Shown here: positions 3,319-17,797 of the stretch, piece after piece
Position numbering within the stretch: the first letter of the stretch is position 1
Layout: each line of letters begins with the position of its first letter
IMG/VR virus record: IMGVR_UViG_3300021957_000320
Coordinates: 1-23,308 of that record
From: a virus
DNA: 23,308 nucleotides
Direction: 5' to 3' (one strand)
Translations under genes and position numbers: made by a program
Notes under the pieces: generated by a model
The model's input: only the letters and a program-made list of their open reading frames with translations
Told to the model about the DNA's origin: nothing
The model's database searches: none

Positions 3319-3795
3319 TTAAACGCCTCCGCCTGCTAACTTTGCTCCAGTAATTGCCACGTCTGTTACTCCCTTTATTAAGGCCGCCTTTCCTTGTGCT
3401 TTTAGATTGCTAGCCTGCTGCTCCCTCCCTAGGGCACCAACACTTGCATTAAACCTAGCGTTGTCAATCGCCTCCGACGCCGCACTGCGTGACTCTCCAG
3501 CAACTGCCAGCGCAGATCCCTCACCGGCTCCGCCGCCTCTTGCCGCGAATAAAGCGTTTTGACTCGCCAGGTCTCTTTCTAGCTGCCTTGAAATGTCAAG
3601 TGATTGCCTTCTACCCTCTAGCCTCTCAAGCTTTGCGTTGAACTCAGACTGCCTTGCTTGCATATCAAAAGCTTTCTTTTGGGAAAACGCCGAAACTAAA
3701 GACCCCCCTATAGCGGTACCTCCAATTAATCCCGTTAGCCCTGCTGTTGCACCGCCTCCAGCAGCCAACCCTCCAATTATCATTAACTCTGCCAT
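3319..3795 (-). CDS. Internal virion protein, gp14-like (158 aa)
   Basis: 158 aa (T7 gp14 is 196). Start ATG at 3795 overlaps the nozzle gene stop (TAATG), so translation is probably coupled; AAAAAGG lies about 11 bases upstream. Residues 5-36 are a Gly/Ala/Ile-rich hydrophobic stretch fit to enter a membrane (IIGGLAAGGGATAGLTGL). Residues 40-80 form an amphipathic, Gln/Arg/Glu-rich helix, followed by a Gly-rich hinge near 86-93 and a second Ala-rich helix. This pattern is typical of gp14-like podovirus proteins, which insert in the outer membrane as the first ejected component. The order nozzle, gp14-like, gp15-like, gp16-like is as in T7-group phages. Assignment rests on position and composition. 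Confidence 0.8.
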   Translation of the reverse strand: MAELMIIGGLAAGGGATAGLTGLIGGTAIGGSLVSAFSQKKAFDMQARQSEFNAKLERLEGRRQSLDISRQLERDLASQNALFAARGGGAGEGSALAVAGESRSAASEAIDNARFNASVGALGREQQASNLKAQGKAALIKGVTDVAITGAKLAGGGV

Positions 3796-6146
3796 TATGT
3801 GTTCAACCTTTTTTTAATTGCTAGCACTGTCATGGGCAATGGGTCGTCTTGCGTTATAGTAACCTGGGCGTCCTCACTCCAGCCACTCCAACCAAGAGTC
3901 CTTTTTACGCCAGTGAATTTAGTCGGGGGGAGGTCAAGCGGACTCCCTCCACCTGCAGGACCAAACCCCCTAAATGAAATTAACTTGCCGTTGATAGAAA
4001 TACCAGATGTTTCTCTCAATCGAAGGCTGATTTCTGATATATTTACCTTTCTCCCCATTAAGCTTGCCTCGGAACCTATTGAAGCAGCCGCCGGAAGGTC
4101 AATAACCTCCACTTCAAAGTTCAGGCCTATTTCCATTGATGTCTCTGCGTCTCTATCTATGGTAACCGATCCAGACGCTGGCGTTTCGTTTCCAAGTATA
4201 GACTCATCAGCAAGAACCCTGCACTCCTCTCCCTCCAGATGAGTTAGTCCACCAAAGGTGTCCGTTGGAAGTCCGGTAGTAACTCTGGTGCTTGCGTCCA
4301 TAAAGTGATCGTTATTAAATCTCTCAAGCCAATTTACCGTTTCCCCGTCTATGGTTCTTTCAACAACAAAGTACATATCTTCAACATCCACCCCACAGGA
4401 TTTAAATGATCCCGTGGTCTCCGACCTAACAAAGCTAGTAATACCCTGGGATCGCAATATATTCGCAATGGTTAGCGACCCATCGTCTCGAACAAGAAGA
4501 ACGTAGGCCCCCTCCTCTGTTGAGGTTGCTTTTCTAAGTGAGAAATCAACCGGCCCCGTAACAAGGTGGCTCGATAGAATAGACACAAAGTTATTTGCGA
4601 ATGCTTGCTCAGCATCGCTGAATATAAACTCCTGAACACTTGCTCCCTGCCTTTGGATGTAAAGGACCCCACCTTCCACCTCTTGCGGCCTGAATCCTTG
4701 CTCAGAACCAAGGGAGCTTTGTTTTGTTATCCCTGAATTTGACGGGGTAATTGGCTCTCCAAGAGTCTGCGTTACGACATACTCCCCGCCCGAGCTAAAG
4801 AACATTAGCGCGCGGCCTGGGTATATCGCCTCAATGTCATCGAATCCCGTTGATAGCGGCCCCACGGCTTCATCATCTAAAGCTTTGCCGAAGTCAAAAT
4901 TAAAGAAGTCATTGACTATAGATCCATAAGCAACGGATGGTCTAGACTTCCCGCCGTCAACCCAAAATCTCCCTTGGAAAAACCTTCCATGTCCAGGATA
5001 TCCCTTTGAAGAGGTCCATATCGGCTCCCTTAACTCCCAATCGTCCTGGGCCGTAGTGTCAACAAAGTCGATTATAATATCGACTGTAACTAAAGTCGCA
5101 CTAGTGTACGCTGTTATTTTGGCATAGCCTGCATTAAAATGGATAGTCCACCCAACCATTGATGCGGTGAATATGTTGTCGCTGGCTGTAATAGTCCTTC
5201 CAGTTCCTGATGTGTGGCTTGGAGTCATTGTTCCACTAACGGTAACGGCCCCAAAGTCATGAGTTGGTGGGCTCTTATACTCAATAACACCCTTCTCCCA
5301 AACATCATTTGCTCCGCTTCGTAGGAACTTTAGAGTTTGAATATCCCTATGAAATATTATTAACGTATCTGCCTCAGATTCCCAGTCTATTTCTGACAAC
5401 ATCGAGTTTGTTATTTCGGGATTGTATATATCAATTAAGTATGTTGTTCCCTGGTAGAAAGCAAGGTTCTTGTCGCTTGCAATTATTTTATAAGTCTGAC
5501 TTACATTAAATTCAAAGTTAATACACCTAGTATCACTTAGTCCAGTCTCTGTCGCTACATCCATCCCCGTTAGCGTTACCTTAAGCGAACCTAGATCCGT
5601 TGCGCCTATTCTGGCAAGCCTCACGTATCTATACGAACCGTGGACCCTTCGGCTATAGTCCTTAGCTGCGTCTGTTATTGTAAGCAACTCTCCTGCGTTT
5701 ACCCAGGCAGCATCATCAACGCTTACTTGTATAAAAAATTCTGAACTAGTTCCTGATGCATCAAATGCTAAGCCTTGAATATAAACAACCCCTATATCCT
5801 GCAAAGACCCTAGATCATAATGAGCTACAACGTAGGGGTTTATGGTTCCTATGTTTGTAGTGGTCGTTAAGCTGGTTCCGCTATCCTGGTCACTTGCGTT
5901 GGATGCCGTCCCGCCACGTGGCGCTGTTTCCGTAATAGAGCCGCCAGATATTTTTGTTATATTGCCAAGAACCCTATCTATATGCTCCAGTCCAGGGCGA
6001 CGCTTAAACCCACCCTGTGGAAGCGTCAATATATTCTTGGCAGTTGATAAGGCTCCGAAATACTGGTCTATATCTTCCCTACCGAGCATAGACGGGTCTA
6101 GCTCCCCCTGAGTAAACCTTTGCTGTATAGTAGTAAACTTAGGCAT
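3795..6146 (-). CDS. Tail nozzle protein, gp12-like (tail tubular protein B), with inserted discoidin-like domain
   Basis: 783 aa, close to T7 gp12 (794). Start ATG at 6146 overlaps the adaptor stop (TAATG). The N-terminus has family marks: FTQGELDPSMLGREDIDQYF, then a PQGGFKRRPG motif at residues 43-52. In the family this is followed closely by a strand of 'R-L-I-P-F-x-F-s' type; here its counterpart (RCINFEFNVSQTYKIIA) starts only at residue 207. The roughly 135 residues between look like a discoidin/F5-8 type C sandwich: YDLGSLQDIGVVYIQGL at 110-126, an EFFIQVSVDDAAW strand at 136-148, and SYRYVRLARIG at 171-181. A later segment (about 285-390, ending in the PIWTSSKGYPGHGRFFQGRF region) is the usual beta domain and blade of the family. 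The protein forms the distal tail tube that contacts the cell surface. Confidence 0.92.
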   Translation of the reverse strand: MPKFTTIQQRFTQGELDPSMLGREDIDQYFGALSTAKNILTLPQGGFKRRPGLEHIDRVLGNITKISGGSITETAPRGGTASNASDQDSGTSLTTTTNIGTINPYVVAHYDLGSLQDIGVVYIQGLAFDASGTSSEFFIQVSVDDAAWVNAGELLTITDAAKDYSRRVHGSYRYVRLARIGATDLGSLKVTLTGMDVATETGLSDTRCINFEFNVSQTYKIIASDKNLAFYQGTTYLIDIYNPEITNSMLSEIDWESEADTLIIFHRDIQTLKFLRSGANDVWEKGVIEYKSPPTHDFGAVTVSGTMTPSHTSGTGRTITASDNIFTASMVGWTIHFNAGYAKITAYTSATLVTVDIIIDFVDTTAQDDWELREPIWTSSKGYPGHGRFFQGRFWVDGGKSRPSVAYGSIVNDFFNFDFGKALDDEAVGPLSTGFDDIEAIYPGRALMFFSSGGEYVVTQTLGEPITPSNSGITKQSSLGSEQGFRPQEVEGGVLYIQRQGASVQEFIFSDAEQAFANNFVSILSSHLVTGPVDFSLRKATSTEEGAYVLLVRDDGSLTIANILRSQGITSFVRSETTGSFKSCGVDVEDMYFVVERTIDGETVNWLERFNNDHFMDASTRVTTGLPTDTFGGLTHLEGEECRVLADESILGNETPASGSVTIDRDAETSMEIGLNFEVEVIDLPAAASIGSEASLMGRKVNISEISLRLRETSGISINGKLISFRGFGPAGGGSPLDLPPTKFTGVKRTLGWSGWSEDAQVTITQDDPLPMTVLAIKKRLNT

Positions 6147-6763
6147 TAACTGAACCTTGCTTCAATAAACGGGCTGTTGTTGACAATTTCAGGGGGACGC
6201 TGCTGAGCATCTAGGGACGAGGCGACAGAAAACTTTCCACCTTTTTCTCCGGTAGATGGACTTCCCCATGCTAATGAGTGCATCTTTTGAGCCAGGTCAT
6301 CATCATCTGTGACCGGGACGCATATCAATGAAGCAAAGGCATATATTGCAAATTGTGTAAAATACCCGGGCCAGTTTGTTTCGCTGGTGTATACAGTATA
6401 TTCGGCGTAAAGCGTCTCTTGGTTGCTCATTGCAACCCTCCCTCCGCCTGGAGCCTGTATGTCGTAATTATTTATAGGCCTAGCGCCTACCGCTCCGCTA
6501 TCAAAAAGCGACCAAACCCTAAGAGCTTCTGCCGGTATTATGTGGGCATTCCTCCACTCATTTAACGGGGCTGTGGTTTGATTTAGTAATCTTTTCTTTA
6601 TGGCAAATGACCACTGGTATCTTGTTAAGATATCCTGAACAAAGTCAGAGTAGTATAGCTTTGCTATGTTTGCCTCGTTTGTTCCGTCATCAAAACTAGA
6701 GATTGTTTCAGCTCTAATAAGGCCTAGAGCCTGAGATGCTATATCGATATCACTAGTAGCCAT
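6146..6763 (-). CDS. Tail adaptor protein, gp11-like (tail tubular protein A)
   Basis: 205 aa (T7 gp11 is 196). Typical adaptor features are visible: an N-terminal IASQALGLIRAETISSFDDG helix-turn, ANIAKLYYSDFVQDILTRYQWSFA around residues 31-54, then a pair of short strands with basic residues (KKRLLNQ), and a C-terminal helix after the VPVTDDDDLAQKM stretch. This protein forms the ring between portal and nozzle. It is the first gene after the long hairpin at 6779-6819 and overlaps the nozzle gene by one base. The upstream SD is a modest AGAGG about 5 bases before the ATG. Family membership is confident because both motif order and gene context agree. Confidence 0.92.
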   Translation of the reverse strand: MATSDIDIASQALGLIRAETISSFDDGTNEANIAKLYYSDFVQDILTRYQWSFAIKKRLLNQTTAPLNEWRNAHIIPAEALRVWSLFDSGAVGARPINNYDIQAPGGGRVAMSNQETLYAEYTVYTSETNWPGYFTQFAIYAFASLICVPVTDDDDLAQKMHSLAWGSPSTGEKGGKFSVASSLDAQQRPPEIVNNSPFIEARFS

Positions 6764-10253: not shown

Positions 10254-12620
10254 TTATTCGTCTGGCTGCCTATTCGCAGACACGTCAAAACCACTAGTGC
10301 CAAACGAAGGAGTTTGGTAAGACGGCTTGATTAAACTGCCTTGAGAACTTCCACGAACAACCTTAGCTATAACCTGATTAGGAGTACCGCCATAAACTGC
10401 TGTATAAGAGTGAGACGTAGCTGTTGCAACCTGGGCCACATATCCAACCATCGCGTCTGCATTATCTGATATTGACTCGCCAACTGTACCAGAAAGGGTA
10501 AATGTTGTAGAGCCGTCATGAGACGTGTACGGAAGAGTGATAAATGTAGTTCCATTGTCCAAAAGAACCTTTCCGACTTGCGGAGTGTTATCAGGAATGG
10601 CGTCAACAACAACAGAGGTTGAGCCTGCAGTAAGCGCGCCATTAACCGCCATTTGATTAAAGTCAGGCTCCGGGTCTCCGTTTGCATCCGTGGCTACTCC
10701 ATCATAAGGAAGGACAATAACATAATCCCCAGACACTAAGTTTCTTACGATACCCGTTTGATTGTTTGGAGGTGCTTGTTGAGTATCAGCCAAATCGATA
10801 AATATGTCATCGCTATTTGCAATGTCATTATCTAACGCGATACCGTAGTTGGTTTGGAATGCTGATCCAGTAAACAGCCCAATCCAGTTGTTATTAATAA
10901 CCCTTGATGATGGAGTTCCATTCACTAAGCAGGTTGCATTAGAGGTCCTTCCATATATAGGAAGATCATCCTCAGGGTCCTGACCAGTTAATGATTGGTA
11001 ATAGAAATTACCCGTTGTTCCGTCATCATCCAGCGCTAAAAGAAGCCCAGTTCCCCCGGCAACCCCAGTGTTATTTACCGCTCCGTTAACATCGCAAGTG
11101 GCCGCTGATGTTACTCCCGTTACGGTCTCGTCATTGGCGGGTATGCCCGTCTCTAACGCGACCACCATAGTCCCTGTCAATCCAGCGTCATTCAAATAAA
11201 GCAAGGTACCTTTCGCCCCGCCAGAGAATGTAACAACCTCACCCACAGTGAATGGGCCGCTTAACTCATTATCATAGTCAAATGAAGTTCCCCAGGCGAT
11301 AATCTCGTCTTCTATAAAAGGCCCTCCGGTTTCACCGTCATAAGCAAAATTCCTATTGGCGCCAATAAACAAGGCCGCATCTCTGCCGTGCAGTGTTTCT
11401 GCTGTTCCTCTGCGTTGTATCCACTTTCCGCGCTCATGAACTTGGGACTTTGTTCTAGTTCCCGCATCAATAATTTGGTAATACTCACGATTACCATTTC
11501 CATTGTTATGATCAATGGTTTGGAATCCTTCAGCAATAGTAATGTCTGACCATGTGGAAATAGTTGCCGCAGCAGTTTGGTTATTAGTATCTGTTGTCGA
11601 GAACAATCCAAGCTCAGTCTCGCCGGACCCAAGTGTCGTATTCCCGTGGAAGTAACTATCACCCAGCTCGTGGAGTAGGCCGCGTATTCTCTTTCCATCA
11701 ATGTCTACGCCGCTTAATCGCGTGTTTATCAATATGCGAATTGCGCCTTTAATTGGGTCTGGGTTGTATCCATTCCCCCAGTAGTTTGTCAAAACCGTAT
11801 CGTTTTGAATAAGAGTTGGCTGCGTATCGGCGGATGCAATCGCATTGATATTAATACCTGAATAAAGAGTGTCACCACCAGCTTGAGAAACAGATCCCCC
11901 ATATAAATGTTGAGCTACAGTATTCGTAATATTCACATTGCCCAATAAATCAATAATATCATCAGTGTTACGTGCCGATCCTGTAGGCGATATAGCCGAA
12001 AGGATATCATCCCCTTCTGGACGCTCGTCATCTCCTAAGTCACTAAGCCATCTATGCAAATGCAAAGGAAGATACGTTCTATTATGCACTGCGCCATTAA
12101 CGTTTGCAGTTGCAGAGGACGTTCCTCCGGTGATGGTCTCATTGTCTACGGGGGCCGGAAGTGTAATTAACCTAAACCTTATGCTTCCTGTTGTCCCCCC
12201 GTCGGTAAGCTCTATAAGCTCGCCCGTTCCTCCCCCGCTAAATGTTAAAACTTCATTCAAAGTAAATGGACCTGAAGCTTCGTTGTCGTAGTTGCATGAG
12301 TGTGTGGTTCCTATTGCGGGCCCTGTCCAGGTAACATTACTAGAGCCGTCGATTGCTAAATCATTGTGTATATTAGCTGGATAAGGAGTCTCACCAAGAG
12401 CCCCATCAACATCAGCAGTTGCAGAGGATGTGCCCCCAGTGATAGTCTCATTGTCCACCGGAAGAGTGCCGCTCAGAAGGGTAATGTACATTTTTCCGAC
12501 ACTGCCAAAGTCTTTAAGCCTAATGAGCTCAGCTGTCGCTGCTCCACCAAACGTTAGAATTTCTCCCTCTGTAAAAGGGCCTGTCGCCTCATTATCATAA
12601 TTTAATACATAATCTGTCAT
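10254..12620 (-). CDS. Large beta-repeat structural protein, probable fibre or surface protein (788 aa)
   Basis: 788 aa, Thr/Asn/Gly/Asp-rich and poor in Cys and Met, as in extracellular phage proteins. It holds copies of a roughly 66-residue beta repeat beginning YDNE-x-x-GPFT-x-x-E and ending TSSATADVDG: at residues 8-74, 111-177 and 449-514. A fourth copy is split, its first strands at 427-445 and its remainder at 522-568, with the 449-514 copy inside it. The middle (180-425) is a non-repeat domain with LHLHRWLSDLGDDE, YWGNGYNPDPIKGAIRI and REYYQIID segments. Residues 575-750 are again beta-rich, and the C-terminus is short and polar. Neighbours are the 622-aa beta protein and the 194-aa protein. 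SD is weak, so coupling to the upstream gene is likely. A host-contact or decoration role is inferred; no enzymatic motif seen. Confidence 0.85.
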   Translation of the reverse strand: MTDYVLNYDNEATGPFTEGEILTFGGAATAELIRLKDFGSVGKMYITLLSGTLPVDNETITGGTSSATADVDGALGETPYPANIHNDLAIDGSSNVTWTGPAIGTTHSCNYDNEASGPFTLNEVLTFSGGGTGELIELTDGGTTGSIRFRLITLPAPVDNETITGGTSSATANVNGAVHNRTYLPLHLHRWLSDLGDDERPEGDDILSAISPTGSARNTDDIIDLLGNVNITNTVAQHLYGGSVSQAGGDTLYSGININAIASADTQPTLIQNDTVLTNYWGNGYNPDPIKGAIRILINTRLSGVDIDGKRIRGLLHELGDSYFHGNTTLGSGETELGLFSTTDTNNQTAAATISTWSDITIAEGFQTIDHNNGNGNREYYQIIDAGTRTKSQVHERGKWIQRRGTAETLHGRDAALFIGANRNFAYDGETGGPFIEDEIIAWGTSFDYDNELSGPFTVGEVVTFSGGAKGTLLYLNDAGLTGTMVVALETGIPANDETVTGVTSAATCDVNGAVNNTGVAGGTGLLLALDDDGTTGNFYYQSLTGQDPEDDLPIYGRTSNATCLVNGTPSSRVINNNWIGLFTGSAFQTNYGIALDNDIANSDDIFIDLADTQQAPPNNQTGIVRNLVSGDYVIVLPYDGVATDANGDPEPDFNQMAVNGALTAGSTSVVVDAIPDNTPQVGKVLLDNGTTFITLPYTSHDGSTTFTLSGTVGESISDNADAMVGYVAQVATATSHSYTAVYGGTPNQVIAKVVRGSSQGSLIKPSYQTPSFGTSGFDVSANRQPDE
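10917..11057 (-). repeat. YDNE beta repeat, second half of the split copy
   Basis: Residues 522-568 of the 788-aa protein align with the second half of the other repeats: GTGLLLALDDDGTTGNFYY followed by an acidic turn and TSNATCLVNG. The first half is at 11286-11342, on the far side of the inserted copy. Confidence 0.65.
11079..11276 (-). repeat. YDNE beta repeat, full copy nested inside another copy
   Basis: Residues 449-514 form a complete repeat (YDNELSGPFTVGEVVTFSGG at the start, TSAATCDVNGAV at the end). It stands between the two halves of the split copy. Confidence 0.8.
11286..11342 (-). repeat. YDNE beta repeat, first half of the split copy
   Basis: Residues 427-445, YDGETGGPFIEDEIIAWGTS, match the first strands of the repeat. 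They then break into the start of the nested full copy rather than continuing to the expected second half. Confidence 0.65.
12090..12290 (-). repeat. YDNE beta repeat, copy 2
   Basis: Residues 111-177. It shares an almost identical VDNETITGGTSSATA segment with copy 1, and the DNA of that segment (near 12108-12160 and 12415-12467) is also closely similar, pointing to recent duplication or conversion. Confidence 0.85.
12399..12599 (-). repeat. YDNE beta repeat, copy 1
   Basis: Residues 8-74 of the 788-aa protein, beginning YDNEATGPFTEGEILTFGG. It occupies the extreme N-terminus, so the repeat may serve as the attachment domain. Confidence 0.85.
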
Positions 12621-12625
12621 GGTTG

Positions 12626-14494
12626 TTACCCGTCATTTATCATTGATAGTGTTAAAGCTGCGCCGGTTGAATTGTCCACAGTTCCCGTAAAAGGAGAATT
12701 AACATAAAGATTTCCTACCACACTACTCTTTCTTGCCGTTCCAGTAAAGTCCTGATTGCTTGCATAGCTTCTTGTGTCGCTCGCGACGCCGCTTGCGTTT
12801 GTTAGGGCGTTTAAAATAACCGCTGTTGAGGTTATTGTTCCCGTTGCCGGTGTGGTCGGCGTGCCTGAAACTGTGTATGTGTACGTGTTTGCTCCTGTAC
12901 TTGTTATAGGATGCAGTCCGTTGTATTCGCTTTGATCAGCTCCAGCTATGACAACCTCTGATCCTGTTGAAAGCCCGTGAGCCGTATGAGTTACGGTCGC
13001 CGTTGATCCAGAGCGCGTTATTGTTACTGAATCCTCAAAAGGCAGTGGACCCACCGCCCCAGCCAAAACAACAACCCTAGCGCCTTGTATCGCAGCTTTA
13101 GATACTGAGTCAATACACGTTACCTCAAGTGCAACCGCCCCCGTGACAACGGTGGTCGTTGCGCCTATCCCGTTTCTAACACTAAAATTTGAGCCGCCAT
13201 CAATTGTTATTGTAAGCGCCCCCCCTGTGTTGTTAAAAAACGCAGCATCGTTTGGCCCGCTATTTGCAACCAAGTTAGAGCCTACTGTCCCCCCATACCC
13301 TGAGAACGTTAGGTTATCAAAGGTAAGAGACGTTCCGGAGGTTATCTGAAAGGCGTGCCCCGCTCCAGCTTGATTAAAAGTAGTGTTACTTATTTCACCA
13401 AAGTCTGGATCGCTACACCACCCATCTCCAGCAAAACTGTTTGTCTCAAATATGCAGTTATCTATAGTGCCTCCGGCCTGTGTCAGGTCATCACAAGCTA
13501 TGTTAGCGCCATCTATTGTTACCGCGCTAGTCATTGTATAGTTTCTAAAATTTCTTAAGGTATGCGACGCTGTTCCTGTTCCCGATGTCCCTGTCCATGT
13601 ATAGTCAGCTCTGGTGTTTGTGGTGTTTGTGGTTCCTAAAGATATATGAGTTGCCGTATCATCTATCACAGTGGAAGCGCTCTGCAAGTCCGCCGAAACG
13701 CCACTAAATCCTGAATCAAATAGACCATCTGGCCAAAGGACTACCCCAGTTCCAGCAAATTCTGTTGCAGTGGCCGATCCTATCGTCATAGTCCCAAAGA
13801 AAAATATAACCCCAGATGTTCCGTAAATAGAGTTTGCATAGCCCCAGCGATTATTAACCGTTCCCTCATCTTCATCAACGAAATCAGACCAGTTACCATC
13901 TGCGCTCACTCCGTCGCCCCCAACAAGTGTCAATCCAGTTCCAAGGTCTATCGCATCTAAACCTACATTTTCTGATTTTGCCGAGGGGCTGGCGAACTCG
14001 GCTTCAATAGCAAAAAGATCAACAGCAGTTAGCGACACGCCAGTTCCTGAGTGGGTTGAATCTCTATATCCTACAATGTTAGGATTCACTGGAACAATTA
14101 CTGTTGCCGTCCTTAATAAGTACTCGTCATAAGCATTTTTTACAGCGTCTGTTCCTGCAGTTATAAAGGCGTACTCGTTTGTGCCATCACCTATATAAAC
14201 CCTTAACCCGTCATTTGATCGCAGCCCATTCGCATCAGTTACAATATGCTTCACCATCCAATGCGCCTTTGCGGCCGCGGTCATATCATGTGTGGTCCCA
14301 CTATCGCTTGTCGGAACATATTCAAACCCCGCCCCAGTTGATGAGGTTATTTTGCGGTTTACAGTATTTGTTCCCTGGTACGCCAAAGGCACTTCGGCAC
14401 TAGCGCCAGCGCCCCCACCACGACTTGCCCACCCAGTTGTTGCTTCTGAGTCTTCAATCCTAGTATTGTCTGCGCTGACGCTAACTACTGCCAT
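12626..14494 (-). CDS. Large beta-rich structural protein with FCCH-like domain (622 aa)
   Basis: 622 aa. Residues 270-450 have the short-strand, Thr/Asn/Gly-rich look of a parallel beta helix (TIDNCIFETNSF, EISNTTFNQAG, LTFDNLTFSGYGG), as in tail spikes or fibres of pectin-lyase fold. Residues 453-480 and 557-620 resemble the two halves of a carboxypeptidase-regulatory-like Ig sandwich (SKAAIQGARVVVLAG; then NASGVASDTRSY...TGTARKSS). Between them, residues 488-556 (start SVTITRSGSTATVTHTAHGL, with VVIAGADQSEYNG) match the FCCH-like domain named from ubiquitin E1 enzymes and common in phage tail proteins. The gene follows the 172-aa gene with two bases between. The SD is weak. No catalytic residues recognised, so an enzyme role is not claimed. 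Confidence 0.85.
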   Translation of the reverse strand: MAVVSVSADNTRIEDSEATTGWASRGGGAGASAEVPLAYQGTNTVNRKITSSTGAGFEYVPTSDSGTTHDMTAAAKAHWMVKHIVTDANGLRSNDGLRVYIGDGTNEYAFITAGTDAVKNAYDEYLLRTATVIVPVNPNIVGYRDSTHSGTGVSLTAVDLFAIEAEFASPSAKSENVGLDAIDLGTGLTLVGGDGVSADGNWSDFVDEDEGTVNNRWGYANSIYGTSGVIFFFGTMTIGSATATEFAGTGVVLWPDGLFDSGFSGVSADLQSASTVIDDTATHISLGTTNTTNTRADYTWTGTSGTGTASHTLRNFRNYTMTSAVTIDGANIACDDLTQAGGTIDNCIFETNSFAGDGWCSDPDFGEISNTTFNQAGAGHAFQITSGTSLTFDNLTFSGYGGTVGSNLVANSGPNDAAFFNNTGGALTITIDGGSNFSVRNGIGATTTVVTGAVALEVTCIDSVSKAAIQGARVVVLAGAVGPLPFEDSVTITRSGSTATVTHTAHGLSTGSEVVIAGADQSEYNGLHPITSTGANTYTYTVSGTPTTPATGTITSTAVILNALTNASGVASDTRSYASNQDFTGTARKSSVVGNLYVNSPFTGTVDNSTGAALTLSMINDG

Positions 14495-17347: not shown

Positions 17348-17797
17348 TTATTGTTTGATAGCCCCTACATTATAAAGAGCGTACATGTCATAAGTTTGCA
17401 AATTTAACCCGTAATACCTCATGCCAGAAGAGGGGGTTTCGTTAACGAACCCAAGCAGCTTTGCCCACCTGTGCCCCTTAACGTAATCTCTTCTTACGGC
17501 TGTTTCCATTCTAATATAACCACTTTGCATTAAAAAGTCATGCACAATTCTGCTTACGGTTACAAACTCCCTTCCAATTTCGCAACTTAGGACCGACCAC
17601 GCCTCCCCTGTTGTTGTTGTTTTTGCTAACACCCCGCCGATTAGAAGTACCCTTCCCCCAGATACAATCGACATTGCTCCGTTAGACACCATCAGCTCTT
17701 GATAAGACTCATCCTCCATAAGGCCAGACATGTAACCTTGCTCTTTTTGGATGGAAAAGTAATTTAGATGAGCAGGATTAAACTTAACAAGCATCAT
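17348..17797 (-). CDS. T7 gp13-like virion assembly protein (DUF2833 type, GNAT-like)
   Basis: 149 aa (T7 gp13 is 138). The ATG at 17797 overlaps the terminase stop by four bases; GGAG stands nine bases upstream. The sequence looks like an acetyltransferase fold: a VLLIGGVL strand (50-57), AWSVLSCEIGREFVTVSRIVHDFL (66-89), and an RMETAVRRDYVKGHRWAKLLGFVNE segment (96-120) that matches the usual 'GNAT strand 4-helix 3' with 'A-x-x-L-G-F'. In T7-like phages this gene family is required for assembly, and proteins of this type sit between terminase and portal in many podoviruses. No proof of acetyl-CoA binding is visible because the Q/R-x-x-G-x-G/A loop is absent. Confidence 0.8.
   Translation of the reverse strand: MMLVKFNPAHLNYFSIQKEQGYMSGLMEDESYQELMVSNGAMSIVSGGRVLLIGGVLAKTTTTGEAWSVLSCEIGREFVTVSRIVHDFLMQSGYIRMETAVRRDYVKGHRWAKLLGFVNETPSSGMRYYGLNLQTYDMYALYNVGAIKQ

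Follow-up and report, generated by a model that had tools for sequence, protein, structure and literature searches.

A predicted discoidin-type domain inserted into the tail nozzle protein of a branch of short-tailed phages

Introduction

In long-tailed phages that infect Gram-positive bacteria, tail proteins with inserted carbohydrate-binding modules (CBMs) are a familiar finding. Siphophages have such CBMs in their Dit, major tail, and neck proteins, where they contribute to host binding or adsorption (PMC10688798, PMC6669499). For example, evolved Dits with carbohydrate-binding insertions restored adsorption to exopolysaccharide-bearing lactococci (PMC10688798), and siphophage neck and tail CBMs function in host binding (PMC6669499). 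In the tail of T7, the N-terminal 45 residues of the nozzle protein gp12 form three strands of the platform barrel, after which the chain passes into the propeller. On the outer surface, a fiber dock connects the last part of the propeller with the platform again, and blade 3 of the propeller is extended to form the tip domain (PMC6702177). Our literature search for a discoidin domain in a podovirus nozzle, with most subscription journals outside its scope, returned no report. Here, we describe such a domain, as predicted from sequence and structural models, in a 23.3-kb IMG/VR record (the whole stretch of DNA analyzed, referred to as the window).

Results and Discussion

The nozzle gene and its neighborhood

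The nozzle ORF of the window matches PHROG 376 (tail protein) with an E value of 6.4e-112. By phmmer, the solved nozzles related to it are 8ck1 (5e-38) and 9efk (7e-30), those of Carin 1 and LME-1, respectively. The gene is preceded by an adaptor gene and followed by a gene of PHROG 418, with the portal and major capsid genes farther off. The features are as follows, with the supporting evidence in parentheses:

3795..6146, minus strand: tail nozzle protein (gp12 or tail tubular protein B-like, PHROG 376), 783 aa, which holds the insert (PHROG, phmmer, AlphaFold2, Foldseek)
5991..6146, minus strand: N-terminal nozzle segment, residues 1-52, with RRPG at its end, the counterpart of the N-terminal platform strands in T7 gp12 (phmmer match of residues 2-53 to 8ck1 residues 8-59; motif alignment to T7 gp12, a weak profile match)
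5544..5966, minus strand: predicted discoidin/F5-8C (CBM32-type) beta-sandwich insert, residues 61-201 (AlphaFold2, Foldseek, family Pfam matches, empty-site relatives)
5475..5543, minus strand: return of the nozzle core, residues 202-224, with the R-C-I-N-F-E-F-N strand, a hairpin, and the start of the propeller (phmmer match from residue 206 onward to 8ck1 from residue 72 onward; model strands)
6146..6763, minus strand: adaptor (gp11 or tail tubular protein A-like, PHROG 394), 205 aa, lacking the discoidin domain (PHROG; insert profile)
3319-3795, downstream of the nozzle gene: internal virion protein, PHROG 418 (PHROG)

A search of the whole window with the insert profile found no second copy. 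Two further proteins sit between the portal and scaffold genes. One is a 788-aa protein (10254-12620, minus strand) with several degenerate repeats of ~60 residues (YDNEATGPFTEGEIL... GGTSSATA-VNG), on which no Pfam family was matched and which may be a fiber or spike; the other is a 622-aa protein (12626-14494). Between the terminase and portal genes, a 149-aa protein (17348-17797, minus strand) looks acetyltransferase-like by eye and had no match in Pfam.

A discrete insert with a predicted discoidin fold

A sequence-only reading of this DNA had pointed to an extra part in the nozzle between an RPG motif at residues 50-52 and the strand RCINFEFNVSQTYKIIA at residues 207-223, and both positions were reproduced. 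The two elements are 154 residues apart in the window nozzle. Over 58 nonredundant relatives, the same stretch comprises 12 to 22 residues in 32, 133 to 162 in 24, and 305 to 315 in two (L002 and L104), so that its length is strictly bimodal apart from the two longer cases. The solved nozzles 8ck1 and 9efk, aligned by phmmer, have no counterpart to the part of the window protein between positions 53 and 206; in 8ck1, the aligned parts end at residue 59 and resume at residue 72. The extra part ahead of the F-x-F-N strand is real and discrete, at ~140 residues, and lies where it had been placed; its extent is slightly longer than first noted, spanning 5544-5966 instead of 5547-5954. Contigs L001, L010, and L015, which come from different metagenomes, carry the same domain at this position, so the insert is not an assembly artifact.

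Modeled alone with AlphaFold2 (29 rows), the insert forms a compact beta-sandwich (pLDDT of 91.9, pTM of 0.85). Its best Foldseek matches in the PDB are nearly all CBM32/F5-8C domains, with a probability of 1.0 and E values of ~1e-6 to 1e-7. The top matches are CBM32-3 (4lqr; E value of 2.7e-7), a chitosan-binding module (4zxe), and the AlyQ CBM32 (7d29); two other proteins of this fold, the APC10 subunit and galactose oxidase, were also retrieved. The model of the full nozzle (58 rows) has a pLDDT of 89.6 and a pTM of 0.87, with the insert part at about 96, and core strands flank the insert at residues 52-59 before it and at residues 207-212 and 218-224 after it. The best PDB matches of this full model are nozzles, namely, those of Carin 1 (1.7e-41), LME-1 (1.3e-40), and T7 (2.4e-20), with TM-scores of 0.71 to 0.72 for Carin 1 and LME-1 and 0.49 to 0.51 for T7. 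The discoidin (F5/8C) fold that had been suggested from motif patterns in the nozzle is borne out by the confident model and its CBM32/F5-8C matches, and the strands of the nozzle core close up on either side of the sandwich, which is the outcome that the earlier reading had named as support. The prediction is of a whole discoidin beta-sandwich (F5/8 type C, CBM32-type) set into an intact T7-gp12-like nozzle.

Searches with PF00754 and PF22633, which had been proposed as a further check, were positive across the family and fell short for the window copy alone. Of the 29 family copies, 24 match PF00754 (best E value, 1.4e-8) and 25 match PF22633 (best E value, 6.6e-8), whereas the window insert scored 18.6 bits against PF00754 (E value of 0.0021; cutoff, 28.2 bits) and 17.5 bits against PF22633, also under its cutoff. 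The copies that pass the PF00754 cutoff are those in three other phages (G005, G008, and G011), plus a copy in the adaptor of L104. A profile built from the 29 copies hit mainly F5/8C or CBM32 domains in the PDB, the best being 5zu6, a CBM32 from an alginate lyase (E value of 8.5e-5). The score of the window copy under the curated cutoff would fit a segment of ordinary nozzle fold or a chance motif match with no discoidin domain, but the predicted fold, the family-wide Pfam matches, and the 36 nozzles with an empty site make this reading hardly credible. An ordinary nozzle fold is ruled out by the empty-site relatives together with the model.

Distribution and inheritance of the insert

An IMG/VR profile search with the insert returned 32 loci, and at the interpretable ones the domain always lies in the nozzle ORF at this site, with the adaptor copy of L104 as the sole exception. 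Scanning 35 whole records with the insert profile gave exactly one copy in 17 and zero in the rest. Among 64 nonredundant nozzles, 28 carry the insert and 36 do not, and the site is single and fixed. Two insert copies are on contigs in MAGs labeled Flavobacteriaceae and Paracaedibacteraceae, for which binning error is possible. Among deposited phages, Dunaliella viridis virus SI2 (DSI2; HQ332136/NC_023841) has a 919-aa nozzle with an insert-family segment at the same site (E value of 7.4e-19). DSI2 was reached via a whole-nozzle search and later via the insert of L107 (E value of 7e-3). No match was obtained by tblastn of the window insert against deposited phages or of one relative's insert against phages and plasmids, and none of the inserts tried matched a deposited phage other than DSI2.

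A tree built from just the nozzle core (602 columns, 64 rows) shows the 28 insert-bearing rows strongly clustered, with 3 state changes versus 21 with shuffled labels, and a single origin of the insert is possible on this tree. The groups in the insert tree are broadly those of the core tree, and insert and core identities over pairs are correlated (Spearman coefficient of 0.81). Close pairs have somewhat lower identity in the insert than in the core (for example, 0.54 versus 0.64 and 0.63 versus 0.73), and distant pairs have slightly higher identity in the insert. The faster divergence of the insert in the close clade is as expected of an exposed module. These patterns suggest that the insert has been inherited vertically and not often swapped, unlike many receptor-binding tips. 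The earlier proposal that this phage itself had added the module did not survive the comparison: the module is old, being present in 28 of the 64 nozzles and in DSI2, with an insert tree that broadly tracks the core. Its acquisition appears to date to an ancestor of a broad nozzle branch.

Variant and additional copies

The adaptor of L104 (L104:3715-4764, IMGVR_UViG_3300036713_000186; gp11-like, PHROG 394) contains a discoidin copy that scores 32.6 bits against PF00754 and is inserted between helices 1 and 2. In addition, the nozzles of L104 and L002 both have ~300 extra residues at the usual site. The adaptor copy and these ~300-residue segments indicate that the module has been added more than once. 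The first extra segment in L002 and L104 was considered as a further discoidin domain and rejected, with a likeness at the level of pattern only, a profile probability of 1.5 to 6%, and zero matches in the PDB. At L112:5085-6869, the nozzle discoidin domain is split by an unrelated insertion of ~165 residues, so that the profile matches the stop-to-stop frame in two parts, residues 86-155 and 322-401.

Some copies are shortened. In the inserts of L003, L011, and L014, ~20 residues are missing, among them the D...T loop that is invariant elsewhere. These inserts form one group in the insert tree (100/99), a group that the core tree does not show. Module exchange within the close clade was considered on this account and dropped, as the core data do not reject the grouping of the three (p-AU of 0.098). 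At L001:5001-7351, the nozzle frame is interrupted at L001 position 6602 and the tblastn match continues to 7351, possibly reflecting a sequencing or assembly indel.

Position in the nozzle and possible roles

The insert site comes after residue ~60, past the N-terminal segment and ahead of the first propeller strand. A profile aligned directly with T7 gp12 matches it weakly, yet the alignment pairs the same RPG-like motif; the mapping onto T7 domains uses the position of this motif, the fold match, and 8ck1 and 9efk. By analogy, we infer a proximal position for the insert, where platform and propeller meet near the fiber dock, and not a position at the tip. The sequence-only reading had put the module at the nozzle tip, in contact with the cell. 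That placement is not supported, because the site follows ~52 platform-type residues and precedes the propeller, and the T7 tip extends from blade 3.

Glycan binding by the insert is plausible. The canonical galactose-binding residues of CBM32 are H, Y, R, N, and F (PMC3313936). Judged by sequence position, this galactose motif, which is not universal among CBM32s, was not recognized in the insert family: a His is present in the stretch following D...T in 0 of the 29 rows and an aromatic residue in 5 of the 29. A close solved relative of the insert profile, CBM32-6 (4a42), bound none of the simple sugars tested (PMC3313936), and the ligands of discoidin domains include proteins and phospholipids as well (PMC2789033).

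Given even chances by us, the most likely role is that of an auxiliary adhesion module displayed as a ring of domains. With a hexameric nozzle, six insert copies would encircle its proximal part, adjoining the groove in which tail fibers dock, with their variable loops pointing outward. Each would bind a host polysaccharide or another surface component weakly, and the ring would do so multivalently, bringing or keeping the short tail near the envelope until the fibers or the tip trigger ejection. In this reading, the insert would be to a short tail what the inserted CBMs are to siphophage tail proteins. We rate adhesion as most likely because modules at exposed sites of conserved siphophage tail proteins have been shown by experiment to act in this way.

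The main rival, a serious one that we nevertheless rate as less likely than adhesion, is a docking or bracing function, in which the six discoidin domains grip fibers, spikes, or a different virion protein in the groove between adaptor and nozzle and bind no receptor. It would suit the placement of the insert at the platform/propeller junction, since the T7 fiber dock joins propeller and platform at the same end (PMC6702177), and in SU10, blade 1 of the propeller is extended to form the short-fiber dock (PMC9509320). The loop that holds the L104 adaptor copy touches the gp12 platform in T7 gp11, so that the L104 copies should face the same collar. The loop residues G181, T183, and D184, which are invariant or nearly so across the family, and the apparent vertical inheritance of the insert are also in keeping with docking. 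However, insert-free relatives build nozzles with the same core, and the second segment of ~150 residues in L002 and L104 and the nested insertion in L112 are a poor fit to a precise geometry. The T7-fiber family PF03906 could not be linked to the presence or absence of the insert, being above its cutoff in T7 itself only; a role for the insert in compensating for an absent T7-type fiber was dropped on this uninformative result. Less probable still would be a spacer or relic that merely pads or stabilizes the nozzle surface with no specific partner. The unrecognized canonical sugar-binding residues, the shortened copies that are missing one loop, and the CBM32 modules that bound none of the sugars tested (PMC3313936) would agree with such a relic, but the fold is intact across nozzles with cores only ~30% identical, and several invariant residues suggest selection beyond padding.

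The adhesion reading has a wider form, which we offer only tentatively: in a large branch of short-tailed phages, most of them uncultivated, the collar of adaptor and nozzle might serve as a multivalent receptor-binding ring, combining adhesion and channel opening in one protein and, in one lineage, extending to the adaptor too. The nozzle gates the release of DNA, and were the domains to bind the host surface, attachment and gate would be coupled in one polypeptide.

Comparison with known systems

The window nozzle shares PHROG 376, the platform, and the seven-bladed propeller with the T7 gp12-type nozzles (T7 6r21, Carin 1 8ck1, and LME-1 9efk). The tail gene order of adaptor, nozzle, and internal virion protein is also shared, and the core aligns on either side of the insert. 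Unlike the window nozzle, those of Carin 1, LME-1, and T7 pass from the N-terminal platform strands to the propeller with no extra domain.

With F5/8C/CBM32 domains (5zu6, 7d2a, and 4zxe), the insert has in common the predicted fold, profile-level similarity, and the SxExFxIQxSxD...W and RYxRLxRIG motifs. In contrast to the CBM32 enzymes, it sits in a virion channel protein, the canonical galactose-binding residues were not recognized in it, and some relatives are without the D...T loop. Galactose oxidase (1k3i), the best non-phage match to the full model (E value of 9e-10), carries a CBM32 domain directly before a seven-bladed propeller. However, its whole-chain TM-score is low (0.24 to 0.28) and it has no other nozzle domains, and the arrangement is probably convergent.

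The evolved Dit and CBM-decorated tails of lactococcal siphophages likewise have a CBM-type insert in a conserved tail protein, and it too is carried by only some of the relatives (PMC10688798, PMC6669499). In those phages, the carrier is a distal tail, major tail, or neck protein and adsorption has been shown experimentally, whereas the carrier here is a podovirus nozzle known by its sequence and model. The closest deposited counterpart is the nozzle of DSI2, in which the same-site discoidin-family segment is very divergent and the protein is annotated just as a hypothetical or tail protein. The insert could serve as an annotation marker for this nozzle branch, whose members currently go under such names.
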